Positions 1 through 28,517 of a DNA stretch of 48,918 nucleotides are shown here, in pieces. The stretch's first letter is position 1. Every line of letters starts with the position of its first letter. A model generated the notes under the pieces. The model was not told the origin of the DNA. It was given only the letters and a program-made list of their open reading frames with translations, and did no database searches. This DNA is from Opitutus sp. GAS368 (lineage in GTDB: Bacteria; Verrucomicrobiota; Verrucomicrobiia; Opitutales; Opitutaceae), in assembly GCA_945903545.1 (NCBI GenBank), contig CAMDOO010000015.1, positions 1 to 48,918 of the forward strand. Direction: 5' to 3'. The position numbers and the translations under genes are program-made.

Positions 1-45
1 CCCTCACCCGGAATCCGATCTCCGGGTGAGGGCACCCGGACTACA
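1..45. repeat. Dispersed palindrome, 'ccgggtgagggcacccgg' family
   Basis: The sequence contains ccctcacccgg and ccgggtgagggcacccgg followed by actaca. The same word with a ctaca/tgtag flank occurs twice in inverted orientation at 44346-44408. This copy lies inside the open frame of the Tmtc-like gene. Confidence 0.7.
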
Positions 46-629
46 GCCTCCTGCCAGCGCAGGTAGGCCAGCCCCGCGAGCAGGTACCAGAAAAGCGAGA
101 ACGTGTTCTTCTGCTCGGAGATCCACGCCACCGACTCCACGTACACCGGATGCACGGCGAAGATCAGGCCGGCCAGCAGCGCGATCGCGCTGCTGGCGCG
201 CAGAGGATCGGAGGGTCCGAGGTTCCGAAGATCCGATTTCCGACCCTCCGATCCTCCGCCCCTCCGACCCTCAGGCTCGAAGAGCCGCCTGACCACCAGC
301 ACCAGCAGCGCCGCGCACGCGGCGTGCAACAGCACGTTCACGACGTGGTAACCGAGGGGTGAATCGCCGAAGAACCAGTACTGGAGCCAGAAAAAACTGT
401 GCAGGAGCGGATAGTACTGCTCGGTCGCGCCGATGTTGAACCAGATGTGCCAGAGCCCGCCCAGCGAGCGCAGCCCGGGCTTCGTCACGTAGTCCACGTC
501 GTTCCAGACAAACCCGCCCCGCAGCGACGGCAGGTAGACCACGAAGGCCACCAGAAAGACGGCGAGCGGGCCGGCCCAGGCGGGCCAGGGCTGGGACTCA
601 CGGGGGCGGGTGGGCGCAGGTCGGGGCAT
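1..629 (-). CDS. Tmtc-like membrane glycosyltransferase/TPR protein, N-terminal part (runs off the window)
   Basis: Reading the reverse strand from an ATG at 629 gives an open frame to the window edge. It starts with a short basic N-terminus and a strong membrane segment (PLAVFLVAFVVYLPSL). It continues with GGFVWNDVDYV, YYPLLHSFFW, GYHVVNVLLH and then FAVHPVYVESVAWISEQKN. The last motif is a hallmark of Tmtc-type polytopic proteins, which carry a mannosyltransferase-like membrane part followed by TPR repeats; the TPR part would lie beyond the left edge. The frame also translates two palindromic repeats, at 203-256 (a low-complexity Gly/Arg/Ser/Asp stretch) and at 1-45. The role is probably envelope protein glycosylation or surface polymer assembly; this is inferred from the family and no substrate can be read. 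The 3' end is not seen. Confidence 0.72.
   Translation of the reverse strand, partial: MPRPAPTRPRESQPWPAWAGPLAVFLVAFVVYLPSLRGGFVWNDVDYVTKPGLRSLGGLWHIWFNIGATEQYYPLLHSFFWLQYWFFGDSPLGYHVVNVLLHAACAALLVLVVRRLFEPEGRRGGGSEGRKSDLRNLGPSDPLRASSAIALLAGLIFAVHPVYVESVAWISEQKNTFSLFWYLLAGLAYLRWQEAVVRVPSPGDRIPGE
203..256. repeat. Palindromic repeat inside the Tmtc-like gene
   Basis: Perfect 15-bp arms at 203-217 (gaggatcggagggtc) and 242-256 enclose a second word pair (ttccgaagatccg). The element is in frame with the surrounding coding sequence and adds a charged, low-complexity insert between two otherwise Tmtc-like segments. Confidence 0.7.
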
Positions 630-723
630 CAGCGGCCTGCAACGAATACGTGTGCGGGGCCTCCAGCAAACCCGATTCTGGACCCTGGCGGCGATGCTTC
701 CGAAGTCGGGAGGGCCGCGGCGG

Positions 724-775
724 CTGTAGCCGGGGTCGTGGACCCCGGTGCCGGCCTCAACGAGGCCAGCTACAG
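724..775. repeat. Compound palindrome, 'ctgtagccggggtc' family
   Basis: The outer arms ctgtagc and gctacag enclose two nested hairpins, ccggggtc/gaccccgg and ggcctc/gaggcc. The same word reappears at 7403-7436. It lies in the 630-845 gap between two reverse-strand genes, where no gene is seen. Confidence 0.7.
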
Positions 776-845
776 ATCCGCGAACCGCCCAAAAAATACC
801 GCTACCAGCAATCCGGTTATTTATCCGGGAACGGGAACGATTCGA

Positions 846-2513
846 TCACCAGCCCAGCACCCACCAGACGAACTTGATCGAGTACCACTCGTTGCGCCGG
901 CGGATCTCCGGCACATCCCAGTCGTTCACATTGAAGAGCAAGCCGAGTTCATCGAGGCGGAACACGGCGGAGTGATCACCCTCGGCGGGGTGGTTCGCGA
1001 TCCAGCAGAGGATCTGGGCGAGCTCCCGGTCCTCGAACTGGGAGCGCAGGACATTCATGATCACGTACGGCAGATGACGCTCCATCTGCGCCTTGGCCTG
1101 GTCGACCGTGGAGGCGACATACATGAGGTTACGGACCCGCTGGACGGGATCGGCCACCTTGCCCGGCGCCCAATTCTTGAGGGCGGCCGCCACGGCATTG
1201 AGGTCCGCCTGGATGTTGTCGTCCGGGGCGTCGTCCGCCGGCGCGATCGGCGTCTCATTGCTGTTGTCGGGCGGCACCGTGAGGAACGGCAGCCGGGCGA
1301 AATCCACATTGGTGTAAGCGCGCCAAGGCGTGGCCGGAGCGGGAGTGTCCGGGGTGGATGCTGCGGACACGGCCGCTGAGGACGCGGGCGGGGAGGCCGG
1401 GACGGGAGGCTCCGTCGTCACCGCAGCCCCGGCCGGCTCGGGAGCGGGCGGCGCGGCCGTGACCACGGGGTCGGCCTTCACTTCCACCGCGGCCGGGGGT
1501 GGTGTCGGCGCCACCGGGGTCATCGTGGGGGCCTGTTCCTGCTCCGGGAGGGAGGGTGCCGGTGACGGAGCGGGTGTGGACGTTGCGGGAGCGGGCGTGC
1601 CGGACGCCGGGATCGCATCCGGGGTGGGACCCGGCACCACCCTGGGCCGGAGACTCGGCCGGGAGGGGCGCGGGGCGATTTCTCGGCGCCACTCCGCTCC
1701 GACGCCGATCAGCACCCAGGCCCCCAGCGCGGCCAGGAGCCAGATCCGGTTGCGATTGGTCAGGAAGCGCTGGTGCGCATCCCAGCGGAACAGCTTGGCG
1801 CCTGTGACCGCGGCCCCGAGCCCGGTGACGATCACCGCAAACGCGCTGAAGCCCGCGGCCCCGAGGCCGCCGCCCTTGGCGCATTGCTGCATGACCTCCA
1901 CGGCGTAACGCCCCGGGAAGAAGGCGGAAAGATGCAGCACCCAGGTCGTACTGGGATCGTTCTCGAAGACCGACAGCTTCACGGCCACGCCGCCGAGGAT
2001 CAGCATCGGCAGGAAGATGCACTGGCCGAGGGCCTGGACCGCGGGGACGGTGTCCGCCATCGTGGCGATCACGAGGCCGAGCCCAAGCAGCGCGAAGGTC
2101 ACGAGCGAGAAGGCCACCCAAAGCTGGAAGGGATGCTCCAGGGCAAAGCCGCCGATGAGCATGCAGGCGACGACCTGGAGCACGCCGGCGAGGAGGATCA
2201 TCAGATAACGCGCGATCAGCGTGCCGGCGATGATCCGGGCGGGTGAAACCGGGGAGAGGCGGTAGCGCCGCCAGACCCCACGCTCGCGTTCGCTGACCAT
2301 CGAGGTGGGCAGGCCGAAGCAGGCGCCGCCGAGGATGGTGACGGTGAGCAGCTCGCCCATGTGCCGGATCAGGAGCGGGTCGTCGTCCTTGTAGAGCACC
2401 ACGAAGGCCAGCAGGAACATGACCGGGAAGACGTAGCTGTAGGCCAGCGCCATCCGGTTCCGGAGGTACATCCGGAGCGTGACCGCCACGATCTCGCGCA
2501 GGTCCTGGTTCAT
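846..2513 (-). CDS. ABC-2 type permease with fused C-terminal (probably periplasmic) domain
   Basis: A 555-residue protein. Residues about 1-255 are an ABC-2 permease with six hydrophobic segments and the family-like stretch MVSERERGVWRRYRL between the second and third. A seventh hydrophobic segment (IWLLAALGAWVLIGV) follows at about 260-280, then a Pro/Ala/Thr-rich linker of about 110 residues, then a compact domain of about 160 residues with WAPGKVADPVQRV, LAQILCWIANHP and a C-terminal WWVLGW. ABC-2 permeases normally have both ends in the cytoplasm, so the extra segment should place the tail in the periplasm. The same tail occurs in the 3529-5028 permease and alone in the 5136-5771 protein. 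The ATG overlaps the ATPase stop by 4 bp, so the two are probably translationally coupled. The substrate and the tail function are unknown. Confidence 0.85.
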   Translation of the reverse strand: MNQDLREIVAVTLRMYLRNRMALAYSYVFPVMFLLAFVVLYKDDDPLLIRHMGELLTVTILGGACFGLPTSMVSERERGVWRRYRLSPVSPARIIAGTLIARYLMILLAGVLQVVACMLIGGFALEHPFQLWVAFSLVTFALLGLGLVIATMADTVPAVQALGQCIFLPMLILGGVAVKLSVFENDPSTTWVLHLSAFFPGRYAVEVMQQCAKGGGLGAAGFSAFAVIVTGLGAAVTGAKLFRWDAHQRFLTNRNRIWLLAALGAWVLIGVGAEWRREIAPRPSRPSLRPRVVPGPTPDAIPASGTPAPATSTPAPSPAPSLPEQEQAPTMTPVAPTPPPAAVEVKADPVVTAAPPAPEPAGAAVTTEPPVPASPPASSAAVSAASTPDTPAPATPWRAYTNVDFARLPFLTVPPDNSNETPIAPADDAPDDNIQADLNAVAAALKNWAPGKVADPVQRVRNLMYVASTVDQAKAQMERHLPYVIMNVLRSQFEDRELAQILCWIANHPAEGDHSAVFRLDELGLLFNVNDWDVPEIRRRNEWYSIKFVWWVLGW

Positions 2514-3427
2514 TCCCGAAGCTTGGAGCCGGTCAGCTCGATGAAGACATCCTCGAGCGTGATCTTACCCACATTGAGCCCGACCAGCGGCACCTGCTGC
2601 GCCTCGAGCCCCTTGATCAACTCGGGCAGAGCCCGGCTGATGTCGCGCGTCCGGAAGCGGCCATGCACACCGTCAACGGCGGGCTCGCTGGCGCCGGGGA
2701 TCCTCGCGAGGACCGCGGCGTCCACCGGGCGGGCGGTCTCGAACGACACCAGCTGGGTGAGCTTCGACGCCGCGATGAGATCCTTGGGCGCGCCGGTCGT
2801 GATGATCCGCCCGTGGTCGACGATGGCGATGCGGTCGCAGAGCTGCTCGGCCTCCTCGATGTAATGGGTGGTGAGGAGCACGGTGTGACCCTCGCGTTTC
2901 ATCTGGGCGATTTCACCGTGCAGCTCGCGCCGGGACTGCGGGTCGAGCCCGGTGGTCGGCTCGTCGAGGAAGACCAGCTCGGGGTTGTTCACGAAGGCGA
3001 GCGCGAGTGCGAGGCGCTGCTTTTGGCCGCCCGAGAGGGTGTCGAAGGGCGCGTCGGCCTTTTCCTCAAGGGAGAAGCGCTTGAGCAGGTCGGCCGCCGG
3101 CACGCGGTGGCGGTAAAAGGAGCCGAAGAGCTGCAGTGCCTCGCGGGCGGTGATCTTGTCCTGCAGCGAGGTGGTCTGGAGTGCTGCGCCGATGCGCTGC
3201 TTGACCTCCTGGGGATGCTTCCGGGCATCGATGCCGCAGACGTCGATCTCGCCGCCGTCGGGCTCCCGGAGGCCGATCACGCACTCAAGGGTGCTGGTCT
3301 TGCCCGCGCCGTTCGGCCCGAGCATGCCGAAGATCTCGCCGTCCTGGATCTCGAAGGTCACCCCGCGCACGGCTTCCACGCCGCCGTAGCTCTTGCGCAG
3401 GTCACGGATCGAAACTTTGGCAGGCAT
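2510..3427 (-). CDS. ABC transporter ATP-binding protein
   Basis: A 305-residue nucleotide-binding subunit of the DrrA/CcmA-like class that pairs with ABC-2 permeases. Walker A is GPNGAGKTS, the signature is LSGGQKQR, Walker B is LVFLDEPTTGLDP and the switch histidine lies in LLTTHY. The roughly 90-residue C-terminal extension is usual for this class. I chose the ATG at 3427 (MPAKVSIRDLRKSYGG) because upstream sequence in the same frame is low-complexity and not family-like. The gene lies between two ABC-2 permeases and overlaps the downstream one by 4 bp (ATGA). It is the only ATPase in the operon and presumably energises a permease heterodimer. Confidence 0.9.
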   Translation of the reverse strand: MPAKVSIRDLRKSYGGVEAVRGVTFEIQDGEIFGMLGPNGAGKTSTLECVIGLREPDGGEIDVCGIDARKHPQEVKQRIGAALQTTSLQDKITAREALQLFGSFYRHRVPAADLLKRFSLEEKADAPFDTLSGGQKQRLALALAFVNNPELVFLDEPTTGLDPQSRRELHGEIAQMKREGHTVLLTTHYIEEAEQLCDRIAIVDHGRIITTGAPKDLIAASKLTQLVSFETARPVDAAVLARIPGASEPAVDGVHGRFRTRDISRALPELIKGLEAQQVPLVGLNVGKITLEDVFIELTGSKLRE

Positions 3428-3528
3428 GGCAGGAGGGGGCGTGGGATTGGGGTGTCGAGCGTGGCGCCAAAATTGGGGCGGCTCAGGAGCGAGGCAAGTG
3501 TGGCAGGGAAAAGATGGCGGCCGGCCGG

Positions 3529-5028
3529 TTATTTTTTCGGGATCGCGCCGCTGTCCGGGTCGTCCAGCAGCCGGAACATGAACTTGGCGGCATAGGTGTG
3601 CAGGCGCGACTCGATCTCGTTGGTCCGGTTGGTCGTCACCTCGATCTCGAGTTTCTCCATGTCCTCGGCCGGCACCATTTCTCCCGGCAGCGGATGGGTG
3701 GCGATCCAGGCCAGTTGCCGGACCAGGTCGGGGGTCTGGGAGCTCTCCCACAAATACTGCTCCACCACCACCGGGAGATACGACTCGAGGGGGGCAATCT
3801 GCATCACGTCGACGACCGCCGCCACGTAAAGCAGGTTGGCGACGCGCTGCAGCGGGTCGCTCACCTTGCCCGGGGCCCAGGTCGCCAGCTTGGTATGGAT
3901 GGCCTTGCCCCTGGCTTGGGTGTCATCGTCGATCTCGTCCAGGTTGGCGGCGATCGGGGTCACGACACCGCTGTCCGGCGGCAGCGTCCGGGGCAGCTCG
4001 AGGAGGTTCGCCGGCGTCAACACGTCCCAGGAAGCCGCCTTCTCCACGGCGTACACCTTTTGCTCGGGTGGCGGAGCCTTGGCCGGCGGCTGCGACGGGG
4101 CCGGCAGCAGAGCGGGCTCAGGGGCCGGCGCCGCCTGTTCCCGGTTCGTGCGTTCGTCCTGCAGCCGCTGCGCCTCCGCGGCGTCGCGCCGCAACGTGGA
4201 GAATCCGACGATCAGGCAGGCCGCCAGCGTCACCGCCAGCCAGCCGAGCCGGCTGCGGCGCTCGTGGCCAGTGTGGACATCCCAGCGGAACATTTTGGCC
4301 GCGCTGACACCGGCGGCCGCGCCCATGAAGAGCAGCACGCCCAGCTCATAGCGGACCGTGGTGATCCCCTCGCCCGCAGTGCAGGCAAAGAGGGCCTCGA
4401 CGGCATACCTGCCCGGCGTGAAGGCGGCGAGCGTCTGGGTCCAGTCCGGCAGCGAATCCAGCCGCACCGCGATGCCGCCCAGCGCCAGCATCGGCAGGAA
4501 GATGCACTGGCCCAGGGCCTGCGCCGCCTGCACCGAGTTGGTCAGCATCGCCACAATCAGCCCAAAGCTGCAGAAGGTGAATGAGACCACCGCGAAGGCC
4601 AACACCAGGTCCGGTAGGTGCGTCGGGGCGGTCAGGTTGGGGTCAGGAACCAGGGTCAGCGCCCTCATGTCCGCCGCCCGCGCCGCCAGCAGCTGCAGGG
4701 CCCCCGCGCCGGCCAGCAGCACAAACCGGACCCCCATCGTGCCGGCGACCAGCGTCCAAATCGGCGTGGGCAGCAGCCGGTAGCGGCGCCACACGCCACG
4801 CTCGCGCTCGGAGACCATCGTGACCGGCAGCCCAAAACACGTGCCGCCCAGGATCGCCACGACGAGCAATTCCCCGAGGTGACTCGCGCCGTGGCCGATC
4901 TCGTGGCGGTAGAGGATGCGGAACGCGACGATGAAGATGAGCGGAAAAAGAAAGCCATAGAACACCGCCAGCCGGGACCGGAACTGGAGCCGGAGCATCA
5001 TGCCGGCGTAGGCGAGGAGGCCTCTCAT
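3529..5028 (-). CDS. ABC-2 type permease with fused C-terminal (probably periplasmic) domain, second copy
   Basis: A 499-residue paralogue of the 846-2513 permease with the same architecture: six-segment ABC-2 region with MVSERERGVWRRYRL, a seventh hydrophobic segment (LGWLAVTLAACLIVGF), a Pro/Ala/Gln-rich linker and a tail domain. The tail shows WAPGKVSDPLQRV, LVRQLAWIATHPLPG and a final YAAKFMFRLLDD. The two permeases flank the single ATPase gene, which suggests a heterodimeric membrane unit. Conservation of the extra membrane segment and the tail in both copies argues that the tail is functional. The start ATG at 5028 gives MRGLLAYAGMMLRLQFRSRLA, a usual ABC-2 N-terminus. Confidence 0.85.
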   Translation of the reverse strand: MRGLLAYAGMMLRLQFRSRLAVFYGFLFPLIFIVAFRILYRHEIGHGASHLGELLVVAILGGTCFGLPVTMVSERERGVWRRYRLLPTPIWTLVAGTMGVRFVLLAGAGALQLLAARAADMRALTLVPDPNLTAPTHLPDLVLAFAVVSFTFCSFGLIVAMLTNSVQAAQALGQCIFLPMLALGGIAVRLDSLPDWTQTLAAFTPGRYAVEALFACTAGEGITTVRYELGVLLFMGAAAGVSAAKMFRWDVHTGHERRSRLGWLAVTLAACLIVGFSTLRRDAAEAQRLQDERTNREQAAPAPEPALLPAPSQPPAKAPPPEQKVYAVEKAASWDVLTPANLLELPRTLPPDSGVVTPIAANLDEIDDDTQARGKAIHTKLATWAPGKVSDPLQRVANLLYVAAVVDVMQIAPLESYLPVVVEQYLWESSQTPDLVRQLAWIATHPLPGEMVPAEDMEKLEIEVTTNRTNEIESRLHTYAAKFMFRLLDDPDSGAIPKK

Positions 5029-5048
5029 GGAGAGGCCTCCAGTGCCGC

Positions 5049-5121
5049 GTGACGGGTGACGAGTGACGAGAAGTTCATCGGAATCGGGGTAGGTATGCGC
5101 TCGTCACTTGTCACACGTCAC
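5049..5121. repeat. Long inverted repeat, 'gtgacgagtgacgag' family
   Basis: The left arm at 5049-5070 is made of repeated gtgacg/gtgacgag words and the right arm at 5100-5121 of ctcgtcac/gtcac words. They form a long imperfect hairpin that occupies most of the gap between two reverse-strand genes. A second member lies at 44810-44901. Confidence 0.75.
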
Positions 5122-5135
5122 TTGGCGTGCAAGCC

Positions 5136-5771
5136 CTACCAGCCGATGACCCAGCGGTTGAGCTTCACGGCATAAAAGTAGGTCCGGTTCCGGACCTCCG
5201 CGGCATCGATCTTGGCCGACACGCCCATGTCGCGGACCAGCTTGTCGCTGAGCACGGTGTCGGTGCCCTCCTCGGGGTGCAGCGCGATCCAACAGAGGAT
5301 CTGCGCGAGTTCCTCCTCCGGAAACTGCGTGAGCAGGTAGCGCAGCACCGCGGCCGGAAGGAAGCGCTCGGCGACCGATTGCGCCAGGTCGGGGGCCCCG
5401 ATGAGAAAGAGGTGGTTGCGCACGCGCTGCACCGGTTCGGCCACATGCCCGGGGGCCCAGGTTGGCAGGGTGGCCTCGACCAGCTTCACGAGCCGGGCCG
5501 AGGTGCCGACCGGCTCTTCGTCGGCGCCCGCGATCGGCGAAATATTGCCGGCGTCGGGCGGCATCTCGTTGATCGGCAGGGCGGCAAAATCGAACTTGGT
5601 CATGGCCCGCCAGGAATCCTTCGCCCCCGCGGGCGGGCTCAACGGCTTGCCGGCGACCGGGGTGGCGGGAGGCACAGGCGCCGGGGCCTCGGCCGCGAGC
5701 ACGGACCACGCCGCGCCGAGCCCAAGCAGGAACGGAAAGAGCGCCGAAAGGCTTCGCCACGAGGGGTTCAT
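5136..5771 (-). CDS. Secreted stand-alone copy of the permease tail domain
   Basis: A 211-residue protein. From the ATG at 5771 it begins with a signal peptide (MNPSWRSLSALFPFLLGLGAAWSV, then cleavage near LAAEA). A Pro/Ala linker follows and then the domain also fused to both downstream permeases: WRAMTKFDFAALP, WAPGHVAEPVQRV, LAQILCWIALHPEEG and a final WVIGW. It is the first gene of the operon and probably acts in the periplasm, where the fused copies are also predicted to lie. I know no named family for this domain. An ATG 18 bp upstream (MSGFPA) is possible, but the chosen start gives the cleaner signal peptide. Longer reading into the dapF-like gene on the opposite strand is an artefact. 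Confidence 0.72.
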   Translation of the reverse strand: MNPSWRSLSALFPFLLGLGAAWSVLAAEAPAPVPPATPVAGKPLSPPAGAKDSWRAMTKFDFAALPINEMPPDAGNISPIAGADEEPVGTSARLVKLVEATLPTWAPGHVAEPVQRVRNHLFLIGAPDLAQSVAERFLPAAVLRYLLTQFPEEELAQILCWIALHPEEGTDTVLSDKLVRDMGVSAKIDAAEVRNRTYFYAVKLNRWVIGW

Positions 5772-5867
5772 AGCAGGGAAACCTGACATTGAAATGGGTC
5801 GTTCGGATTGCAAGCGCTTCACCTTTTTTCGTGTCTTCCGCGGGCCGGTCGCTTTGCTGGCCGGCGC

Positions 5868-6722
5868 ATGCGTTTTCACAAGTACCACGCCCTCGGCAAC
5901 GACTACATCGTCCTCAACCCGGCCGACTTCCCGCAGTGGAAGCCGGCCCCCTCGGTCGACCAGATCCGGGTCGTCTGCCACCGCAATTTCGGGGTGGGCT
6001 CCGACGGCATCCTCTGGGGCCCCCTGCCCTCGAAGAGCAGCGAATTCGGCCTCCGCATCTTCAATCCCGACGGCTCCGAGGCCGAGAAGTCCGGCAACGG
6101 CCTGCGCATCTTCTCCCGTTTCCTTTGGGACCAGGGTCTGGTGAAGAGTCCGACGTTCACCGTCGAGACCCCCGGCGGCAATGTGCAGTCCGAGATCAAG
6201 GACAACGGCCGGCTCATCACCGTCGCGATGGGCAGCGTCAGCTTCGACAGCGCGAAGATCCCCGTCACCGGCGCACCGCGCGAGGTGATCAACGAGAAGA
6301 TCCGCGCCCTCGACCGCGATTTCCGCTTCTGCGCCGCCACCATCGGCAACCCGCATTGCGTCATTCCCCTGCCCCAAGTGGATGCCGACCTCGCCAAGGA
6401 CTACGGCCCCACTCTCGAGACCCACGAGTTCTTCCCCCGCAAGACCAACGTGCAGTTCCTGCAGGTGCTCGACCGGAAGAACATCCGCATCGAGATCTGG
6501 GAGCGCGGCGCCGGCTACACCCTCGCCTCGGGCAGCAGTTCGAGCGCCTCGGCGGCGGTCGCCCACAAGCTCGGGCTCGTGGACCGCGACGTCACGGTGC
6601 ACATGCCAGGCGGCACGATCGGTATCTCCATCGGCGACGGCTTCTCGATCATGATGACCGGCACCGTCAACAAGGTCGCCGAGGGCACGATGCACCCGGA
6701 CCTGTTTGCGGTGAAGGTGTGA
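5868..6722 (+). CDS. DapF-family epimerase homologue lacking both catalytic cysteines
   Basis: A 284-residue protein with the diaminopimelate-epimerase fold signature: MRFHKYHALGNDYIV at the start, GSDGIL, DGSEAEKSGNGLR, NPHCVI and WERGAGYTLASGSSSS. In characterised DapF, a Cys in the (M)CGNG motif and a Cys in the ACGTG motif are the two acid/base residues. Here both positions are Ser (Ser75 and Ser221). The protein is otherwise full-length and well conserved, so it may be a distinct DapF-like subfamily with another reaction, or an inactive homologue. The ATG at 5868 gives the canonical N-terminus. It is divergent from the ABC operon. I withhold the dapF symbol because of the residue changes. 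Confidence 0.85.
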   Translation: MRFHKYHALGNDYIVLNPADFPQWKPAPSVDQIRVVCHRNFGVGSDGILWGPLPSKSSEFGLRIFNPDGSEAEKSGNGLRIFSRFLWDQGLVKSPTFTVETPGGNVQSEIKDNGRLITVAMGSVSFDSAKIPVTGAPREVINEKIRALDRDFRFCAATIGNPHCVIPLPQVDADLAKDYGPTLETHEFFPRKTNVQFLQVLDRKNIRIEIWERGAGYTLASGSSSSASAAVAHKLGLVDRDVTVHMPGGTIGISIGDGFSIMMTGTVNKVAEGTMHPDLFAVKV

Positions 6723-6804
6723 CGGGCGTACTCTTAACCCGGTCACCTGCTCCCAATACAGTGAGTCGTCAGGGCCTCAGTCACCCCAACAACTCCCTCC
6801 CCCC

Positions 6805-7242
6805 ATGCACTGCTCCAGCAGGTCTGTTGTCAGATTCCTCGGATCGGCCATCGCCGCTGCGCTCGTTCTCACCCTCGGCGGCTGCGCCACCGGCGAAAGC
6901 GCCGGACCCAGCGGCCCCTCCGGCCCCACGGTGAAGGTCGTCTTCGAAGCCCAGCCGACGGCCGTCATCATCATCAACAACACGGATCTCGGCCCGACCC
7001 CGGTCACCGCCAACCTTGAGGTCGATGAAGCCGGCTTCCTGATGTACAACGTGAGGATCGATTACGATTTCTCCAAGGCCGACGGCGGTCGCAACGCCCC
7101 GGCCACCAAAACCGTCAACTGGCGGGTGGGAAAACTTCCGGTGGCCAAGGTGATGTACATCAGCGGCAACGTCACGGAGTCCATGGAGAAGGCCCCGCCC
7201 AAACCCCCCGGGACCAAGCGCTCGGCCGAGCGCTACGACTGA
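6805..7242 (+). CDS. Small lipoprotein, PEGA-like
   Basis: A 145-residue protein with a lipoprotein signal: basic start, hydrophobic core and lipobox LGGC at about residues 24-27. The mature part contains a beta-rich segment resembling a PEGA module (QPTAVIIINNTDLGPTPVTANLEV) and ends in a Pro/Lys-rich tail. It resembles the convergent lipoprotein at 7453-7947 (shared LEV-E-G-L-Y-V-I-D pattern), so the two are probably duplicates. It is followed by a clear intrinsic terminator. Probably envelope-associated; the function is unknown. Confidence 0.72.
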   Translation: MHCSSRSVVRFLGSAIAAALVLTLGGCATGESAGPSGPSGPTVKVVFEAQPTAVIIINNTDLGPTPVTANLEVDEAGFLMYNVRIDYDFSKADGGRNAPATKTVNWRVGKLPVAKVMYISGNVTESMEKAPPKPPGTKRSAERYD

Positions 7243-7260
7243 GACGTCCCCCCTCCCTTC

Positions 7261-7287
7261 AGCCCGGCTCTCCAGCCGGGCTTTTTT
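7261..7287 (+). terminator. Intrinsic terminator of the 6805-7242 lipoprotein gene
   Basis: The arms agcccggct (7261-7269) and agccgggct (7274-7282) are separated by a 4-nt loop and followed by a run of six T, 19 bp after the stop codon. Confidence 0.9.
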
Positions 7288-7302
7288 GTGCCCGGCGAAG
7301 GC

Positions 7303-7358
7303 CTCGCGTGCCCCGGCTCCAGGATGGGTGCGCCCTTCTGGAGCCGGGGCGCGCGAGG
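7303..7358. repeat. Palindrome with about 18-bp arms
   Basis: The words cctcgcgtgccccggctccag and ctggagccggggcgcgcgagg are near-perfect reverse complements around a loop of about 14 nt. The element lies just after a terminator and before another compound palindrome. Confidence 0.75.
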
Positions 7359-7382
7359 CAGCAGTCCGAAGCACTGCTCGGG

Positions 7383-7456
7383 CTAGAGCAGTTTTAAAAA
7401 TACTGTAGCCGGGGTCAACGACCCCGGCTGCTACAGAATTCCTTAAAGCGCTCTAG
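7383..7456. repeat. Nested palindrome overlapping the stop codon of the 7453-7947 gene
   Basis: The outer arms ctagagcagttttaa and ttaaagcgctctag enclose the inner element ctgtagccggggtc-aac-gaccccgg-ctg-ctacag (7403-7436), a second copy of the word seen at 724-775. The right outer arm contains the TAG stop of the reverse-strand lipoprotein. Confidence 0.72.
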
Positions 7457-7947
7457 TCCTGCCGGCTCGCGGTCGGCGAGGTGCCCGGCTTCGCCCGGTC
7501 GGTGGCCTGGCCTTCCTCGCGGATGACCACGGCGCTGAAGTTGAGCTTGCGGGGCGGCACGCGGCCCGCGCCATAACTCTTGGACAGGATCTGGGGACCG
7601 CGGCTGGAACCGAGCATCGAAGCCGCCCGGGAATCCGAATGGCCGGAGGGGTCGACCGAGATCGTCACCGCGTAGGGCAAGGTGCCGTCCTCGTTGACCT
7701 CGAGATAGATGTCGCGCGGCGCGAACCCCGCGTTGAAGCCGTTCACGATCACGTTGGGGCTATCGTAGCTCGAATCGATCGACACGATGACGACCGGCGG
7801 CAGCTTGGCCAGTTCCTCGGGGGTCAGGATCTTGGACTTGCGGGCGCTCGGGACTCCGGGGGTGGATCCGTCGGTGGCGCAACTGGCGAGACCGAGGGTG
7901 GCGCACAGGCCGAGCAGGAACAACAGCGGGATTTTCATGATGGGCAT
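7453..7947 (-). CDS. Small lipoprotein, PEGA-like (paralogue of 6805-7242)
   Basis: A 164-residue protein with a typical lipoprotein signal (MKIPLLFLLGLCATLGLASC), so the start may be the ATG at 7938 rather than 7947. The mature part has VVIVSIDSSYDSPNVIVNGFN and DIYLEVNEDGTLPYAVTISVD, a PEGA-like beta segment matching the neighbouring lipoprotein's pattern. It is convergent with that gene and separated from it by a terminator and two palindromes. The role is unknown. The C-terminal 50 residues are Arg/Pro-rich and probably disordered. Confidence 0.72.
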   Translation of the reverse strand: MPIMKIPLLFLLGLCATLGLASCATDGSTPGVPSARKSKILTPEELAKLPPVVIVSIDSSYDSPNVIVNGFNAGFAPRDIYLEVNEDGTLPYAVTISVDPSGHSDSRAASMLGSSRGPQILSKSYGAGRVPPRKLNFSAVVIREEGQATDRAKPGTSPTASRQD

Positions 7948-7974
7948 GGGACAACACGGATCAAACCTATCGAT

Positions 7975-8005
7975 ATAGTACTTAAAACTACGGTACCACG
8001 GTCAA
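7975..8005 (-). promoter_or_regulatory. Candidate sigma70-type promoter for the 7453-7947 lipoprotein
   Basis: The reverse strand reads TTGACC (8005-8000), a 19-bp spacer, then TACTAT (7980-7975), about 30 bp before the start codon. The surrounding 25 bp are AT-rich in a GC-rich background. The spacer is longer than ideal. Confidence 0.4.
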
Positions 8006-8044
8006 GAAGCCGGGTGTAACCGACCGGACACAAAAAATGGCGGG

Positions 8045-8114
8045 CCTGGTCCACGACCCTCCGTCGTCCGCATCCGGACCAGGGAGGGTTCGCCCCGACG
8101 CCATGCGTCGGGCG
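8045..8114. repeat. Two adjacent palindromes downstream of rpsA
   Basis: The arms cctggtcc (8045-8052) and ggaccagg (8076-8083) form the first. The second is cgccccgacgc with gcgtcgggcg at 8091-8114. They lie between the rpsA terminator and the lipoprotein promoter. Confidence 0.65.
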
Positions 8115-8147
8115 AAAAAAAGGCGCCCCGCGGGAGCGGGGCGCCTT
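8115..8147 (-). terminator. Intrinsic terminator of rpsA
   Basis: On the reverse strand, aaggcgccccg (8147-8137) pairs perfectly with cggggcgcctt (8130-8120) and is followed by a run of T (the A run at 8115-8121), 25 bp after the rpsA stop. Confidence 0.92.
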
Positions 8148-8171
8148 GAAGGGATCTTCGAGTGAAGGGGC

Positions 8172-9851
8172 TTATTCCTTCTTCGAGGCCTCGTCGAGGA
8201 TATCGCCGAGGTTCATCATGTCGTTCGCCCCGTCGCGCTTGAGGGCCTCGTAGGCCGAGGTCTCGGCGGCGAGCTGGTCGCTGCTGTAGTTGGCGGCCTT
8301 GATCGAGAGGCCGAGGCGGCGCTCCTCGCGGTCGATCTTGATGACGCGCGCCGTGACCTGCTGGCCCGGGTTGAGCACGTCCTTGATCTTCTCGATGCGC
8401 TCCTCGCTGATCTGCGAGATGTGCACGAGGCCGTCGATGCCGTCCTTGAGCTCCACGAAGGCGCCGAAGGAGGTGATCTTGGAGATCACGCCGGTGACGA
8501 CGTCACCGATGCGGAAGTGGGCGTCGATGTCGGACCACGGATCGGTCGCGAGCTGCTTCATGCCGAGGCTGATGCGCTGCTGCGTGGGATCGATGTCGAG
8601 CACGATGGCGTCGACCTCGTCGCCCTTCTTCAGCACCTCGCTCGGGTGGTTGACCTTGCGGGTCCAGCTCATGTCGGAGACGTGGACCATGCCGTCGATG
8701 CCGTCCTCGAGCTCGATGAACGCGCCGTAGGTGGTCATGTTGCGGACCTTGCCGCGGACGCGGGCGCCGATCGGGTAGTTGTGGCGGACCATGTCCCACG
8801 GGTTCGGCTCCAGCTGGCGGAGGCCGAGGGAGATCTTCTGCTCGGTCTTCTGGATGCCGAGGACGACCGCATCGAGCTCCTGGCCGACCTTGAGCAGCTC
8901 GGAGGGCTTGGTGATGCGCTTGGTCCAGGACATCTCGGTGATGTGGACGAGGCCCTCGACGCCCGGCTCGATCTCGATGAACGCGCCGTAGGGGACGAGG
9001 TTGACGACCTTGCCGTGAACCTTGGCGCCGACCGGGAACTTCCGGTCGATCTCATCCCACGGGTTCTTGGTGGTCTGCTTGAGGCCGAGGGAAACGCGCT
9101 CTTTCTCGCGGTTGACCTCGATGATCATGACCTGGATCTCCTCACCCTGCTTGACCATCTCGGACGGGTGGGAAATGCGGCCCCACGACATGTCGGTGAT
9201 GTGGAGCAGGCCGTCCATGCCGTCGAGGTCGATGAACGCGCCGAAATCGGTGATGTTCTTGACGATGCCCTTGCGGACCTGGCCGGGCTGGATCGAGTCG
9301 AGGAGCGCGCGACGCTTGGAGGTGCGCTGTTCCTCGATGAGCTCGCGGCGGGAGAGGACGACGTTCTGGCGGACGAGGTCGATCTTGAGAACCTTGAAGT
9401 CGTAGGTCTGGCCCACGTACTGGTCGAGGTTCTTGGGCGGCTGCACGTCGATGTGCGAGGCCGGCATGAAGGCGTCGACGCCGATGCTGACGATCAGGCC
9501 GCCCTTGACCTTGGCCTTGACGCGGCCAGCGGCCACGGAGCCCTCGGGAAACTTGGTGAGGATGTTGTCCCAGTTCTTCTTCTGCTCGGCCTTGTCGAAG
9601 GAGACGACGGGATTGCCGAACTTGTCCTCGAGCTTCTCGAGCATGACCTCGATCTGGGCTCCGACCTGGAGCTCGCCGATGTCGATGAATTCGGAGGCGG
9701 GGACGACACCCTCGGATTTGCCACCGATGTCGACGACGACCTCGTTCTGGCGGATTTCAGTGATGGTGCCGGGGACGATGGCGCCTTCCTTCAGCTTATC
9801 GAAGGAGGACTGGGCCAGCAGCTCGTGCATTACGGACGTTGCGGTACTCAT
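8172..9851 (-). CDS. rpsA: 30S ribosomal protein S1
   Basis: A 559-residue protein with six consecutive S1 (OB-fold) RNA-binding repeats, the standard length and domain number for bacterial S1. Repeats are recognisable by motifs such as GFGAFVEL/YGAFIEI and GLVHISQ/GLLHITDMSW. S1 binds mRNA on the small subunit and helps initiate translation. The ATG at 9851 (MSTATSVMHELLAQSSF) is the first start adjoining conserved sequence; the frame upstream to 9992 is Ser/Arg-rich and not S1-like. The gene is monocistronic, with a strong terminator. Confidence 0.96.
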   Translation of the reverse strand: MSTATSVMHELLAQSSFDKLKEGAIVPGTITEIRQNEVVVDIGGKSEGVVPASEFIDIGELQVGAQIEVMLEKLEDKFGNPVVSFDKAEQKKNWDNILTKFPEGSVAAGRVKAKVKGGLIVSIGVDAFMPASHIDVQPPKNLDQYVGQTYDFKVLKIDLVRQNVVLSRRELIEEQRTSKRRALLDSIQPGQVRKGIVKNITDFGAFIDLDGMDGLLHITDMSWGRISHPSEMVKQGEEIQVMIIEVNREKERVSLGLKQTTKNPWDEIDRKFPVGAKVHGKVVNLVPYGAFIEIEPGVEGLVHITEMSWTKRITKPSELLKVGQELDAVVLGIQKTEQKISLGLRQLEPNPWDMVRHNYPIGARVRGKVRNMTTYGAFIELEDGIDGMVHVSDMSWTRKVNHPSEVLKKGDEVDAIVLDIDPTQQRISLGMKQLATDPWSDIDAHFRIGDVVTGVISKITSFGAFVELKDGIDGLVHISQISEERIEKIKDVLNPGQQVTARVIKIDREERRLGLSIKAANYSSDQLAAETSAYEALKRDGANDMMNLGDILDEASKKE

Positions 9852-10041
9852 GGGCAAAGACCGGCGAACGGGCACCCTGCTCCGGGAGCACCGATTCCAC
9901 CGGGATGGTCCCGCCGAAGCGGAACCGATGGTTGACGGTTGAACTGACGGGATAGATCGACGGGAGCATCGCGGCGACGTCGACCTGACCAATGGAACTG
10001 CCGCGAACGATCAGCGTCGCCAGCGCCCACGGGCGCGGCAA

Positions 10042-12349: not shown

Positions 12350-13444
12350 TCAGCGTGAGCGCCGCAGCAGCTTCAGCGCGGCGGGTTGCTGTTGCGAGAT
12401 GCAATGCAGCGTGCCGCGACCCCAGACGAGGTCGACACAGTCGATCGGCACGATCTCCCGGCCGGGGAAACAGTCTCCGAGGATCGCGGCCGCCCGCGCG
12501 TCGCTCCGCGGCTGGCGGAAGGTGGACATCAGCACGGCGCCGTTCAGCACGAGGAAATTCGCGTAGGTCGCCGGGAGGCGGCGGGCCTCGCGGTACACCG
12601 GCTTCGGCATCGGGAGCTCCACGATCCGGTAGCGCCGGCCGGCGGCGTTGCGCAGGCTTTTCAGGCGGTCGAGGTTGTCGCGGAGCATCGGGTAGTTGAT
12701 GTCCTTCCGGTTGGCCTCGACCGCGGTCACGATGCCGTCGGTCGAAAAGAAACGGGCCAGGTCGTCCACATGGCCGTCGGTGTCGTCGCCCACGATCCCG
12801 TCGCCGAGCCAGTGGACCAGCTTCACGCCCAGGAAGTCGCGGAGCCGCTGCTCGATCTCGGCGCGGGTGAGCCACGGGTTACGGTTCGGGTTGAGCAGCA
12901 CGGCCTCGGTGGTGAGGACGGCGTCGGTGCCGTTGACGTCGATCGAGCCGCCCTCAAGCACCATGCCAGGGCGGAAGCGGCGGAGCTTGAGCGCCGCGGC
13001 GATGCGGCCGGGGATCGCGTTGTCGCGGTCGAACGGCCGGTACTTCTCGCCCCAGGCGTTGTAGTCCCAGTCGTTGACGGCCACCTCGCCGGTGCGGTCG
13101 TTGCGGACAAAGTTCGGTCCGTGGTCGCGGCACCACGCGTCATTCGTGGGATGCGCGTAGAACTTCACCCGGTCCAAGTTGGCACCGGCCCGCCGGAGCA
13201 GCGCCCGGGCGCCGGGCTGGCCGGAACGCGCGAGGTTGATGCGGACCTCCTCGAAGCGGCTGATCGCGGCGGTGATCTCGGCGAACTTGGCGGGGATCGG
13301 CTCGAAATTGCGCTGCCAGGTGCGGCGCCGGACCGGCCAGGAGAGCCAGATCGCCTCCTGCGGCTCCCACTCCGCCGGCATGCGGAAGCCCAGCGCCGCC
13401 GCGGACTTCGCGGCAGAGGAGGACGAGGTTTTCTTCGCGGGCAT
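12350..13444 (-). CDS. aguA: Agmatine deiminase
   Basis: A 364-residue enzyme of the peptidyl-arginine-deiminase-like fold that converts agmatine to N-carbamoylputrescine and ammonia. Visible family features are the start MPAEWEPQEAIWLSWP, the DHGPNFV and EGGSIDVNG motifs, DTDGHVDDLARF, and the C-terminal GRGTLHCISQQQPA carrying the catalytic Cys. The start ATG at 13444 (MPAKKTSSSS) adds a Ser/Ala-rich leader of about 20 residues. The gene encoding the next step (13855-14727) lies upstream on the same strand, separated by a 410-bp gap filled by a long nested palindrome. Confidence 0.92.
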   Translation of the reverse strand: MPAKKTSSSSAAKSAAALGFRMPAEWEPQEAIWLSWPVRRRTWQRNFEPIPAKFAEITAAISRFEEVRINLARSGQPGARALLRRAGANLDRVKFYAHPTNDAWCRDHGPNFVRNDRTGEVAVNDWDYNAWGEKYRPFDRDNAIPGRIAAALKLRRFRPGMVLEGGSIDVNGTDAVLTTEAVLLNPNRNPWLTRAEIEQRLRDFLGVKLVHWLGDGIVGDDTDGHVDDLARFFSTDGIVTAVEANRKDINYPMLRDNLDRLKSLRNAAGRRYRIVELPMPKPVYREARRLPATYANFLVLNGAVLMSTFRQPRSDARAAAILGDCFPGREIVPIDCVDLVWGRGTLHCISQQQPAALKLLRRSR

Positions 13445-13517
13445 GGGTCCGAGCAAACCGGCGAAAAATGAAAGGTGAAAGCGGAAAGGCGCGACCCGCC
13501 CGGACAAAAACCAGGTT

Positions 13518-13791
13518 GGCACGCCAAGACGCGAAGACGCAAAGGTCGGAGGAGGAGGCCGGATGGGCTTTTGTCGGATTCGTGCCGAATCCGACAAAAG
13601 CCCGTTCTCCCGCACGGGCGATCTACGCGCCGCGTGAATTGACTGAATATCGTTCATCCCGATGCGATTCCCGCGCAGCGGAGATCCGCCGATGGGCGGC
13701 AGGCCACGGGCATTTGGCGAAGCGCGAAGCGATTCGCCAAATGCCCATCTGGTTCTCCTCCGACCTTTGCGTCTTCGCGTCTTGGCGTGCC
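13518..13791. repeat. Nested inverted repeat, 37-bp perfect outer arms with two internal hairpins
   Basis: The outer arms at 13518-13554 and 13755-13791 are perfect 37-bp reverse complements. Inside are two separate perfect hairpins: 13565-13581 with 13587-13603 (17-bp arms) and 13708-13720 with 13734-13746 (13-bp arms). The 13445-13854 gap contains no supported gene. Confidence 0.88.
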
Positions 13792-16544: not shown

Positions 16545-16704
16545 CGGATCAGCTTGGGGCCTCCGCAGGCGGCCCGGATCGAGCGCCCGACCAAGGGGGC
16601 AACCACCCTCACTTGGCAAGGCCTCCCCCCCAGCCGGGGCATAACCAAGAGTGATCAATTGCCGGCCTTTGCCTCAGCCTCGGCCTGCACATCGGCTGGC
16701 GTCG

Positions 16705-17865
16705 ATGACGTCCACGGCCTCCGCGCAATCGGGCTTCTCGCCGCCCAGCCTGGCCGAAGTTTCGCTGGAGCAGGCGCCGATCGGGATGTGCTGGCTCGAC
16801 GGCGAAGGACGCATGGTGGCGTGCAATCTTGCGTTCGCCGCCCTGACCAAATGCCGGCGCGAGGAGCAGCCGCTCTTCACGTCCTTTCTGCCCGGCACCT
16901 CGCTGCCTTGGACCAACCGGTCCCCCCAAGAGGCGCAGGCTCCGGTCGATTGCGAATTGCTGACCCGGGATGGGGCCAGGGTGCCGGTCACGCTCCGGGT
17001 CCGCCGGGTGCAGTACGGCGGGCGCGAGCTTGAGCTCCTGCTCGTCGAGGACGTCACCGAGCTGCGCAAGGTCCAGCAGCACGTCGCCACGGCCCAGCGC
17101 CTCGAGAGCGTGGGCGTGCTCGCCGGAGGCATCGCACACAACCTCAACAACACGCTCGCCCCGGTTATCCTCGGGCTAGACATCCTCCGTGACAAGGCCA
17201 CCAGCGCCCAGCTGCCGATGCTGAACAACATGCTGGCGGGTGCCCAGCGTGCCGCCGGGCTGATTACCCAGATGCTGATGTTCGCGAAGCGGAAGGAAAT
17301 GAAGCTGGTAAAGCTTAAGGCCGGCCCGCTGCTGGACGAACTGAGCCGCACCCTCGCCCACACGTTCCCCGAGAACATCGAGGTGAACATCATTCCCGCA
17401 CGGAACCTGCCGCCACTGCTGGGCGGCGACGTCCATCTTATGAGCGTGCTGCTCAACTTGGCACTCAATGCCCGCGATGCCATGCCGCAGGGCGGGCGGC
17501 TGGAGGTCCGGGCTGACCTCGTGATCGCCGACCACCACCACACCGCTGCGGTCGGCACGGTGCGGCCCGGCCGCTATGTGCGGTTCAGCGTCGCCGACAC
17601 CGGCACCGGGATGCCCCCCGACGTGCGCGACCGCATCTTCGATCCGTTCTTCACCACCAAGGGACCCGACAAGGGCACGGGCCTCGGGCTCTCCGCCGTG
17701 CACGGGATCGTGGAAAGCCATCGGGGGTTCCTCAACGTGTACACTGAGGTGGGCCGCGGCACGCGCTTCCATGTCAACATCCCCGCTGTCGGCGAGGAGC
17801 CGCGGGGCGAGACCACGCTGACGTCCAATCCCCGGGTGATCGAGGGCCGGGGCGGCTTGTCCTGA
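16705..17865 (+). CDS. Soluble PAS-type sensor histidine kinase, frameshifted before its receiver
   Basis: A 386-residue kinase without membrane segments. A PAS-like region (about 20-130, EQAPIGMCWLDGEGRMVACN) is followed by the H-box GVLAGGIAHNLNNTL, N-box LNLALNARDAMPQGG, G1 ADTGTGMP, F-box DPFFTTK and G2 GTGLGLSAVHGIV. The frame then stops at TGA (17863-17865). The next frame continues directly as a receiver (GRLVLIADDE), so the intact gene was a hybrid kinase. One extra G in the ggccggggcgg run at 17845-17855 would restore it. A GTG start at 16651 is also possible. Either a sequencing error or a real mutation. Confidence 0.85.
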   Translation: MTSTASAQSGFSPPSLAEVSLEQAPIGMCWLDGEGRMVACNLAFAALTKCRREEQPLFTSFLPGTSLPWTNRSPQEAQAPVDCELLTRDGARVPVTLRVRRVQYGGRELELLLVEDVTELRKVQQHVATAQRLESVGVLAGGIAHNLNNTLAPVILGLDILRDKATSAQLPMLNNMLAGAQRAAGLITQMLMFAKRKEMKLVKLKAGPLLDELSRTLAHTFPENIEVNIIPARNLPPLLGGDVHLMSVLLNLALNARDAMPQGGRLEVRADLVIADHHHTAAVGTVRPGRYVRFSVADTGTGMPPDVRDRIFDPFFTTKGPDKGTGLGLSAVHGIVESHRGFLNVYTEVGRGTRFHVNIPAVGEEPRGETTLTSNPRVIEGRGGLS

Positions 17866-18218
17866 TCGCAGACGACGAGGTCATGGTGCGAACCGTGCTA
17901 CACGGCGTGCTTGAGCGCCTCGGCTTCACCGTCCTGCTGGCCGAGGACGGCGCCCAAGCGCTGGCCGATTGCGCCCGCCTCAAGCAGGAGCTCGCCCTGC
18001 TCATTACAGACCTGCACATGCCGAATCTCGACGGTCTGACCCTGTTGCGGGCCGCCCGGCGGATCCTCCCCACCCTGCCCGGCCTGGTCTTGAGCGGCCG
18101 GTTCCTCGAGGATGAGCGCAAGGCCCTCGATCAACTCGGCTCGTCCAAGCTCTTGTCCAAACCGTTCAATCAGGCCGCCCTCAACGAGTGCCTGCACGAG
18201 GTGCTGGCCAAAGCCTGA
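17850..18218 (+). pseudogene. Receiver domain separated by a frameshift from the upstream kinase
   Basis: In the -1 frame relative to the kinase, a complete receiver of about 120 residues is read: acidic pair in LVLIADDEV, phospho-Asp in LLITDLHMPNLDG, Ser in LVLSGR and Lys in LLSKPFN. The only ATG near the front (17883) lies after the acidic pocket residues, so independent translation would give a non-functional receiver. This supports the view that it belonged to the 16705-17865 kinase. Confidence 0.75.
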
Positions 18219-18234
18219 AGCGGCAAAGTGAACG

Positions 18235-18734
18235 ATGTATCCAGGCAAATCATCGCGCTGGATCCACGGGCGCTATTTGCTGCGCGATCCCGCAACCCGC
18301 ATCGCGCGCATGTCTATCCTCCTCGCCGGTCTCAGCGCCGGAGTGATCGGAGCGGTCGCCTGGAACCGCCGTCAGCTCGACCGTCTCGCGATCCATACAG
18401 CTGAACTCGCCATCGGGTTCGAGCCGGACGATTTCACCGGGCTCACGGCCGTGGCCGACGGCGTAGACGGATTGTGCCGGGCCGCCGAGCCGGGGCAGAG
18501 TCGAACCTCGAGATCATCGACTTCGAGATGCCGGGGCTGCACGGCCTTGAGCTCCTCCACTCCTTCAAGGCAAGGCTGGGCCGAGTGCCCCTGGTGGACA
18601 TGGCCGGCAGCTCCAACGCCGAACTGCCCCGCCTCGCCCACGAGCACGGGGCGGCGGCGATGCTGGAGAAGCCGTTCAGCCGCCAACAGCTGCTGCAAAC
18701 CGTCGAGACGGCGCTGGGCGGCGGCCGCCGTTGA
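18235..18734 (+). pseudogene. Degraded receiver-domain remnant
   Basis: Two frames together spell a receiver. The frame from 18235 ends its recognisable part with GLTAVADGVDGLCRAA, and the frame from about 18490 continues with LEIIDFEMPGLHGLELLHSF, then VPLVDMAGSS and MLEKPFSRQQLLQTVETAL. The N-terminal 60 residues of the first frame include one hydrophobic stretch (MSILLAGLSAGVIGAVAW) and lack the usual acidic pair. At least one frameshift and an altered front make this a probable pseudogene. Confidence 0.55.
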
Positions 18735-18809
18735 CCCCGGGCTCGGCACCGTCCTTCCCGGGCCCGGCTCGAGCCGGGCGCGGCCCGCATTGGGTCCTGG
18801 CGAGCCCCC

Positions 18810-18888
18810 GGCGAGGTATAATATCTATACCAGAAAGCAATATCGCTATACTAACACACCGACCGGGATTCAGCTAGAGTGATCCCTT
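18810..18888 (+). promoter_or_regulatory. AT-rich promoter region of the 18889 regulator
   Basis: A sharply AT-rich patch in GC-rich surroundings contains TATAAT at 18817-18822 within the dyad gtata-N5-tatac. A second tatac word follows downstream. No good -35 box is seen, so an activator may be involved. Confidence 0.45.
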
Positions 18889-19551
18889 ATGACTACGTCC
18901 CCGCCACGCATTCGGGTCGTCATCGTTGATGACCACCAGCTTCTCCTCGAGCTTCTCGCCGACTCGATCGGGCAGCTGCCGGAGTTTGAGGTGGTCGGTC
19001 GCTTCACCTCAGGCATCGCCTTCCTCCGCGCGGCCAAGGCCATCGAGTGCGACGTAGTCCAGCTGGACCTGATGATGCCGGACCTGAACGGACTCGAATG
19101 TGTGCGAAGCCTGCGCCGCGCAGATCCGTCCCGGAACATTCTGATCGTCTCCGGCAATACCAACGCGCTTTCCATCAGCCGCGCGCTGCGGCTCGGGATT
19201 CGGGGTTACGTCGAGAAGAGCGCACCCACCGAGGAAATCCTCACCGCCCTCCGCCTCGTGGGCGGCGGAAAATCGTACTTCGGCCGCTCGTTGCAGGCCA
19301 AGGTCCGCAAGATCTGCGACTCACCCTTCCCTCTCGATGCCTCGGACCACCTGTCGTCACGGGAACACACGGTGCTCGCCGGCCTCGCCGCCGGCCAGAC
19401 TTCGAAGGCGATCGCCGCGGCCCTCGGGCTGAGCGAGTTCACGGTCAAGAACCACCGCCGCCGGATCAAGAGCAAGACCGGTCTGCACACCAATGCCGAG
19501 CTGATCCGGCTCGCCACCCGCCTCGAGCTGGTGGAGCCCGAAAACCTTTGA
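18889..19551 (+). CDS. NarL/LuxR-family response regulator
   Basis: A 220-residue protein. The receiver has VVIVDDHQLLLE (acidic pair), VVQLDLMMPDLNG (phospho-Asp), LIVSGN and GYVEKSAPTEE (conserved Lys). The LuxR helix-turn-helix is LSSREHTVLAGLAAGQTSKAIAAALGLSEFTVKNH. The start ATG is at 18889. It resembles the regulator at 27833-28510 in layout and length. It precedes an outer-membrane barrel gene, so it may control envelope or exopolysaccharide functions; that link is inference. Confidence 0.9.
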   Translation: MTTSPPRIRVVIVDDHQLLLELLADSIGQLPEFEVVGRFTSGIAFLRAAKAIECDVVQLDLMMPDLNGLECVRSLRRADPSRNILIVSGNTNALSISRALRLGIRGYVEKSAPTEEILTALRLVGGGKSYFGRSLQAKVRKICDSPFPLDASDHLSSREHTVLAGLAAGQTSKAIAAALGLSEFTVKNHRRRIKSKTGLHTNAELIRLATRLELVEPENL

Positions 19552-19627
19552 TCCTCAGCCGACCTGGCACCTCCGACATCCACCCTGTTGCGCCACCACC
19601 CCATGGGCACCCAAAGAACACCTACGC

Positions 19628-21614: not shown

Positions 21615-21706
21615 GATGACGATTCCGGCACACGGGACGCCGCGCCGTAAAGCCCGCGAGATTAGCCACTGCGAGCCAGCCGGATGGCTCCCCATCAGGC
21701 CGCGGG

Positions 21707-28510: not shown

Positions 28511-28517
28511 CGCGGGT

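Follow-up and report, generated by a model that had tools for sequence, protein, structure and literature searches.

An ABC-2 transporter family with an undescribed, probably periplasmic helical domain and its three-copy elaboration in one verrucomicrobial genus

The stretch of DNA analysed here (the window) comprises the 48,918 nucleotides of contig CAMDOO010000015.1 from Opitutus sp. GAS368 (Opitutaceae, Verrucomicrobiota). On its minus strand, at 846-5771, lies an operon for an ATP-binding cassette (ABC) transporter whose genes follow the order solo, permease 1, ATPase, permease 2. One C-terminal domain of about 160 residues, referred to below as the tail, is common to solo, permease 1 and permease 2. 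We find that the operon belongs to a family of ABC-2 transporters with an undescribed and probably periplasmic domain, and that the three-copy form is a genus-level elaboration of this family. The tail is attached through a predicted seventh membrane helix, it is spread as a two-gene unit (ATPase, then tailed permease), and it takes its three-copy form in one genus. Both the domain and the combination appear new, and we found no description of the tail or of the three-copy layout in open-licence literature. The features of the operon are as follows.

5136-5771, minus strand: solo gene, 211 aa, a predicted signal peptide and the tail domain alone; present in 3/3 genomes of the genus.
5694-5771, minus strand: predicted signal peptide of solo, residues 1-26 (hydropathy and reading; the N-terminus is alike in the congeneric loci L034 and L035).
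5139-5618, minus strand: tail domain, solo copy, residues 52-211 (alignment, own-genome search).
3529-5028, minus strand: ABC-2 permease 1 with C-terminal tail, 499 aa (PF01061, E 2.6e-15).
4192-4248, minus strand: predicted seventh membrane segment of permease 1, residues 261-279 (hydropathy, family consensus).
3532-4035, minus strand: tail domain of permease 1, residues 332-499 (alignment, own-genome search).
2510-3427, minus strand: ABC ATPase, DrrA-like (PF00005, E 6.3e-30; TIGR01188, 264 bits, under the cut-off of 312).
846-2513, minus strand: ABC-2 permease 2 with C-terminal tail, 555 aa (PF01061, E 4.7e-19; whole-protein model).
1689-1757, minus strand: predicted seventh membrane helix of permease 2, residues 253-275 (hydropathy, family consensus, model).
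1332-1688, minus strand: proline- and alanine-rich tether of permease 2, residues 276-394, with no modelled secondary structure (composition, model).
849-1331, minus strand: tail domain of permease 2, residues 395-555 (model with a mean predicted local distance difference test [pLDDT] of 96.2 and a predicted template-modelling score [pTM] of 0.92).

Searching the window's own genome with the permease 2 tail returned the other two copies at E 1.6e-37 (45% identity) and 4.5e-25 (39%). At these values the three tails are homologous rather than alike by chance, which confirms the shared domain that an initial annotation of this DNA had proposed. The same search gave no convincing fourth copy in the genome, the next place scoring E 0.2. 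The domain limits first put forward hold for permease 2, but the domain of permease 1 is slightly wider and that of solo starts slightly later, at residue 52. The WAPGKV fingerprint stands in both permeases, whereas solo reads WAPGHV. Across 39 tail rows, 14 columns are invariant, including W54 of the WAPG motif and P115 of the HP motif, and the histidine of the latter is nearly invariant.

The AlphaFold2 model of the tail, built from 39 sequences, consists of helices only. The initial annotation assigned the domain to no described family, and our searches bear this out: scanning 39 members against Pfam gave nothing above a curated cut-off (best E 0.078), NCBIfam and PDB-sequence searches with the tail returned no significant match, and neither did a PHROGs search made with solo only. 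Foldseek with the tail model produced no PDB match at E ≤0.001 (best 0.38), and the best VIA Z score for the model was 3.4. Foldseek against the PDB and viral models and VIA yielded weak rows such as Mcl-1 and AhpD, which were set aside as fold relatives. As modelled, then, the tail is not clearly related to any solved structure searched; with about 160 residues and a confident model, it presents a clean target for structure determination.

Hydropathy places seven membrane segments ahead of the tail in each permease, as the initial annotation had it, and the whole-protein model of permease 2 agrees, showing core membrane helices, a helix at 253-275, an unstructured stretch to about residue 395 and then the tail. 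The consensus of 48 tailed permeases likewise has six membrane segments, then a seventh (GWLLVALAAWLAVGLLAEW), then the tail. The permease 2 tether is 120 residues long and 28% proline, and most of residues 287-382 are modelled at pLDDT <50. Tether length varies from about 10 to 142 residues across the set, some of the shorter values being artefacts of hydrophobic linker stretches. Solo shows one N-terminal hydrophobic segment followed by an alanine-rich cleavage-like site, and this predicted signal peptide occurs in all three species of the genus, in line with the earlier description of solo as the domain alone behind a signal peptide. The signal peptide and topology calls rest on hydropathy and reading, not on dedicated prediction programs. 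Over the 48 tailed permeases, the summed mean number of lysines and arginines is 13.4 in loops predicted to be cytoplasmic versus 6.2 in those outside, only the first 15 columns of the tail being counted. Because of this charge bias and the predicted signal peptide of solo, a periplasmic position of the tails, as first suggested, is favoured.

The remaining parts of the proteins are those of an ABC-2 transporter. The ATPase, whose ATG lies at 3427-3425 and whose stop codon is overlapped by the ATG of permease 2, matches ABC_tran (PF00005) at 105 bits and by reading contains Walker A, Walker B, LSGGQ and H-loop motifs. Both permeases exceed the ABC2_membrane cut-off of 26.9 bits, at 57.0 and 69.2 bits. 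The best NCBIfam models for the ATPase and the permeases include DrrA and DrrB, both beneath their cut-offs: the ATPase stays short of DrrA (TIGR01188) as listed above, and the permeases reach 43 and 24 bits against the 223 set for DrrB (TIGR01247). The permease core has the ABC-2 fold, with VIA Z scores of 22.0 over 240 residues (ABCH-9C) and 18.6 over 233 (NosY). The 50 VIA rows listed for it span Z 16.6-22.0 over 230-252 residues and include ABCH, ABCG, ABCA, NosY and yeast and Candida chains.

A three-row profile found the tail in 62 of 200 Opitutaceae genomes, 59 with one copy and three with three copies. Only the window's genus showed the three-copy layout, in 3/3 genomes (the window, L034 and L035). 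With 59 of the 62 carriers single-copy, the domain is not peculiar to a three-copy operon, a point on which the initial annotation needs amending. In a sample of the phylum, the tail occurs in 8/387 genomes, seven of them Opitutaceae; the class of Phenylobacterium (Alphaproteobacteria) has it in 2/385 and the phylum of Luteitalea (Acidobacteriota) in 3/297, each of these three counts including the known carrier itself. A scan of genome contigs, which demands near-exact peptide patterns, found 8 tail loci, including Phenylobacterium, Polymorphobacter, Luteitalea and Bryobacterales. The tail is sporadic in Acidobacteriota and Alphaproteobacteria and spans at least three phyla. Spread on plasmids was considered and rejected, as a plasmid search with the Phenylobacterium tail gave no match.

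The expected recurrence with ABC-2 genes was borne out: an ATPase gene directly precedes the tailed permease in 45 of the 47 distinct loci examined. The two exceptions are L080, at a contig edge, and L081, a divergent Polymorphobacter paralogue. At this second Polymorphobacter locus (L081:8642-9904, plus strand) lies a diverged tailed membrane protein with seven hydrophobic segments, for which we found neither an ABC2 Pfam match nor a neighbouring ATPase gene; it is possibly an orphan or decayed relative.

In the tail tree, the solo copies (100/98), permease 1 tails (100/100) and permease 2 tails (100/98) each form one group, and solo together with the permease 2 tails forms one clade (100/96). 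Solo is therefore of the permease 2 tail lineage and older than the split of the three species. In the permease tree, permease 1 and permease 2 each form a single group on a long stem, and their mutual relation is not settled. We calculated ratios of nonsynonymous to synonymous substitution (dN/dS; NG86) for the window against L035 and L034, respectively, obtaining 0.28 and 0.24 for solo, 0.20 and 0.29 for permease 1, 0.11 and 0.15 for the ATPase, and 0.22 and 0.39 for permease 2. All four operon genes are under purifying selection. By dN there is a mild mismatch, the window's solo being closer to L034 and its permeases closer to L035.

These data bear on one account of the operon, a plain small-molecule exporter in which the tail is a stabilising or assembly domain and solo a leftover of duplication. 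DrrA and DrrB, the nearest named families, would suit such an exporter, but solo has been kept in 3/3 species, with dN/dS of 0.24-0.28 for the window pairs, and the tail is conserved across three phyla. We regard this account as quite improbable.

The reading that we tentatively favour is ATP-driven delivery by an ABC-2 pump, with the tails as tethered receivers and solo as their free counterpart. In the main subfamily of carriers, the pump would work for a redox system in the periplasm. The permease would hold the helical domain outside the inner membrane on a flexible, proline-rich tether. In most species, two identical tailed permeases would pair on two ATPases. In the window's genus, we infer with moderate confidence a heterodimer of permeases 1 and 2, and the secreted copy of the permease 2 tail lineage would act with both in the periplasm. 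What the tail does there is less sure: it might capture the exported substrate, or be the periplasmic partner that takes the substrate over, a receiver role we put forward only weakly, and solo might be the free-moving carrier or adaptor counterpart of the tail. In the main subfamily, the machine would serve a redox system of c-type cytochrome DUF7133 proteins; for the window's genus itself this link is weakly suggested.

The redox part of this reading comes from co-occurrence and gene neighbourhood. DUF7133 proteins include cytochrome c and HEAT parts, and they are found in 49 of the 62 Opitutaceae carriers versus 40 of 138 non-carriers (Fisher 3e-11, with no kinship correction). By subfamily, all 45 Opitutaceae genomes of the main group have DUF7133, as do 4 of 17 in the second; one of those four (G103) is represented by a fragment that may belong to the main subfamily. 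Outside Verrucomicrobiota, 6/6 tested carriers, of 8 known, have DUF7133. In three alphaproteobacteria, the DUF7133 gene immediately precedes the ATPase gene in the same orientation (3/3 tested), and it is single-copy in their genomes (E up to 1e-10). Each of the three genomes of the window's genus holds at least nine DUF7133 matches.

Our neighbourhood survey covered 48 loci rows. Within about 6 kb of the locus, a loose profile finds six DUF7133 neighbours versus 0.81 expected, at least four of them (G550, G552, G694 and G038) among the matches listed. DUF1501 genes lie within 6 kb at eight loci versus 0.92 expected, in two genera only, and this confinement makes the adjacency weak evidence. 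The Poisson expectations for these neighbours, and for the VTT genes considered below, ignore kinship and gene clustering. DUF1501 and DUF1549/1553 genes stand near the locus in two Opitutaceae genera, joined in one by PSCyt1/DUF2231. In five genomes of one Opitutaceae genus (L059:1142-10638, L060-L062 and L083), we observed the gene order DUF1549/1553, DUF1501, PSCyt1/DUF2231, ATPase, tailed permease, VTT. Some loci have a sugar-catabolic setting, with genes for an aldo-keto reductase, TonB-dependent receptors and TIM-barrel sugar isomerases nearby.

A link with c-type cytochrome genes would also fit a maturation machine like NosDFY, in which a periplasmic part, driven by ATP use in the ABC-2 core, equips a periplasmic redox enzyme, here DUF7133 or PSCyt, with its cofactor. 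The permease core does resemble NosY (Z 18.6), but this likeness is that of the common ABC-2 fold, many ABCG and ABCA chains scoring equally, and some carriers lack DUF7133- or PSCyt-type enzymes. A NosD-like power stroke through the tether is not favoured because a disordered stretch of about 120 residues is unlikely to transmit force. Such a tether suits capture and hand-over, which favours tethered receivers, and we consider maturation of this kind unlikely.

The genomic setting, an ABC permease and ATPase encoded near periplasmic dehydrogenases, is similar to that of the Ped system, whose PedC is of the ABC-2 kind. It could accommodate uptake of a cofactor or metal, with tail and solo binding the ligand and handing it to the permease, which would import it. 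The tail was not recognised as any known solute-binding fold, however, and by NCBIfam the ATPase is nearest to DrrA-type exporters, leaving uptake very improbable.

VTT-domain membrane genes provide a different lead. They occur at 14 of the 48 loci rows, at 10 of them directly downstream on the same strand, including Luteitalea. In a control over 40 carrier genomes, 13 of 144 VTT genes lie within 6 kb of the locus versus 0.39 expected. Proteins of the DedA type are lipid carriers, and if this applies here, the VTT neighbours hint at membrane lipids. They would then speak for a relay like that of Lpt, in which both permease tails and solo stack into a periplasmic bridge that passes a lipid or glycolipid outward from the inner membrane, an unrelated fold taking the part played in Lpt by the jellyrolls of LptF, LptG, LptC and LptA. 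The parts match, namely one ATPase, two different permeases, a soluble partner and a shared periplasmic domain. Against such a bridge, tether length is highly variable and the modelled tether disordered, unlike a rigid track; 59 of the 62 Opitutaceae carriers have a single copy; and the three-copy operons showed no neighbouring VTT gene. The genome also keeps its own LptF/LptG pair, PF03739 being found at two other places, so the operon is no substitute for Lpt, and replacement of that system was rejected. A lipid relay is, in our view, rather unlikely.

Several observations weigh against delivery to a redox system as well. In the stretches examined, 27 of the 48 loci rows, among them those of the window and its two congeners, have no VTT, DUF7133, PSCyt or DUF1501 gene, and the window contains no CxxCH motif in any frame of at least 150 aa. 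The low share of DUF7133 in the second subfamily (4/17 genomes) means that this partner is not obligatory. Four of 40 carriers (G003, G010, G147 and G531) lack both DUF7133 and DUF1501, and 40 Opitutaceae genomes have DUF7133 without the transporter. Co-occurrence was moreover counted by genome with kinship uncorrected, and the alphaproteobacterial figures come without a background rate for DUF7133.

Should tethered receivers nevertheless be the right reading, several consequences would follow. Lpt and Lol carry pump products across the periplasm, and the tail would be a separate, unrelated answer to the same task. The co-occurrence suggests that DUF7133 proteins need something delivered. The transporter may thereby offer a handle on c-type cytochrome proteins; in one genus it also adjoins PSCyt proteins, for which the authors of a study on freshwater Verrucomicrobia knew of no function (PMC5615132). 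In its boldest form, the proposal is a new periplasmic hand-over system: an undescribed all-helical fold, tethered to ABC-2 pumps of three or more phyla, would deliver the exported substrate to redox proteins of the c-type cytochrome kind, and one verrucomicrobial genus would have independently evolved an Lpt-like heterodimeric pump and a soluble carrier that share the receiving domain. This whole we regard as rather doubtful.

Downstream of the operon, the contig continues for another 845 bases. In the two congeners, membrane proteins with C-terminal TPR (c13 and c21) are encoded directly downstream of it (L034:12633-16304 and L035:5843-8536); the window has a relative of c13 at 1-845 (minus strand), cut by the contig end, and further c13/c21 relatives lie near L063, L075, L086, L090 and L096. 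On the other side of the operon are two small convergent lipoprotein-like genes with no Pfam match (6805-7242, plus; 7453-7947, minus). Elsewhere, the window encodes a Porphyromonas-type peptidyl-arginine deiminase (12350-13657, minus), a cluster of histidine kinases and response regulators including a 1168-aa CHASE-PAS hybrid kinase (16651-28543), a CotH kinase protein (36252-37775, plus) and an unusual-looking fusion of phosphotransferase system (PTS) EIIA to a DacZ_P sensor and a diadenylate cyclase (DAC) domain (44906-46261, minus).

Among described systems, NosDFY is similar in placing an ABC-2 permease, an ATPase and a periplasmic part near a periplasmic redox enzyme, and it uses ATP through its ABC-2 proteins to drive the periplasmic part in cofactor loading. 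NosD is a separate protein, whereas here the domain is fused to the permeases; Pfam recognised no NosD-like protein among the 8 proteins of 1-10,000, a stretch cut off by the contig end 845 bases beyond the operon, and the genome as a whole was not searched with a NosD model. PedA1A2BC, on which La3+-dependent growth relies when La3+ is low (PMC6839425), resembles the tailed transporter in its genomic setting, with ABC permease and ATPase genes near those for a quinoprotein dehydrogenase and cytochrome c (PMC6839425, PMC12997753). As far as the available text of these papers goes, its periplasmic components are separate proteins, a binding protein and a beta-propeller protein, and a shared tail domain is not described. 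DrrAB and other ABC-2 (type V) exporters have a like ATPase and six-helix permease core; the seventh helix, the long tether and the tail set the present family apart from them, as do the two permeases and solo in the window's genus.

The closest precedent in layout is LptB2FG-LptC-LptA, in which a single ATPase is combined with two distinct permeases and a soluble protein that have one periplasmic domain in common (PMC5548808, PMC10094684). The initial remark that no described ABC system with such a layout was known therefore holds in part: the shared domain and its combination with these proteins appear new, but the logic of the window's operon is that of Lpt, realised with another fold and another class of permease. 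Neither permease matches PF03739 (LptF/LptG) in Pfam at E ≤1. In the accounts of Lpt available to us, the periplasmic domain is a beta-jellyroll joined to transmembrane helix 3 (TM3); here it is modelled with helices only and follows the predicted helix 7 at the C-terminus.

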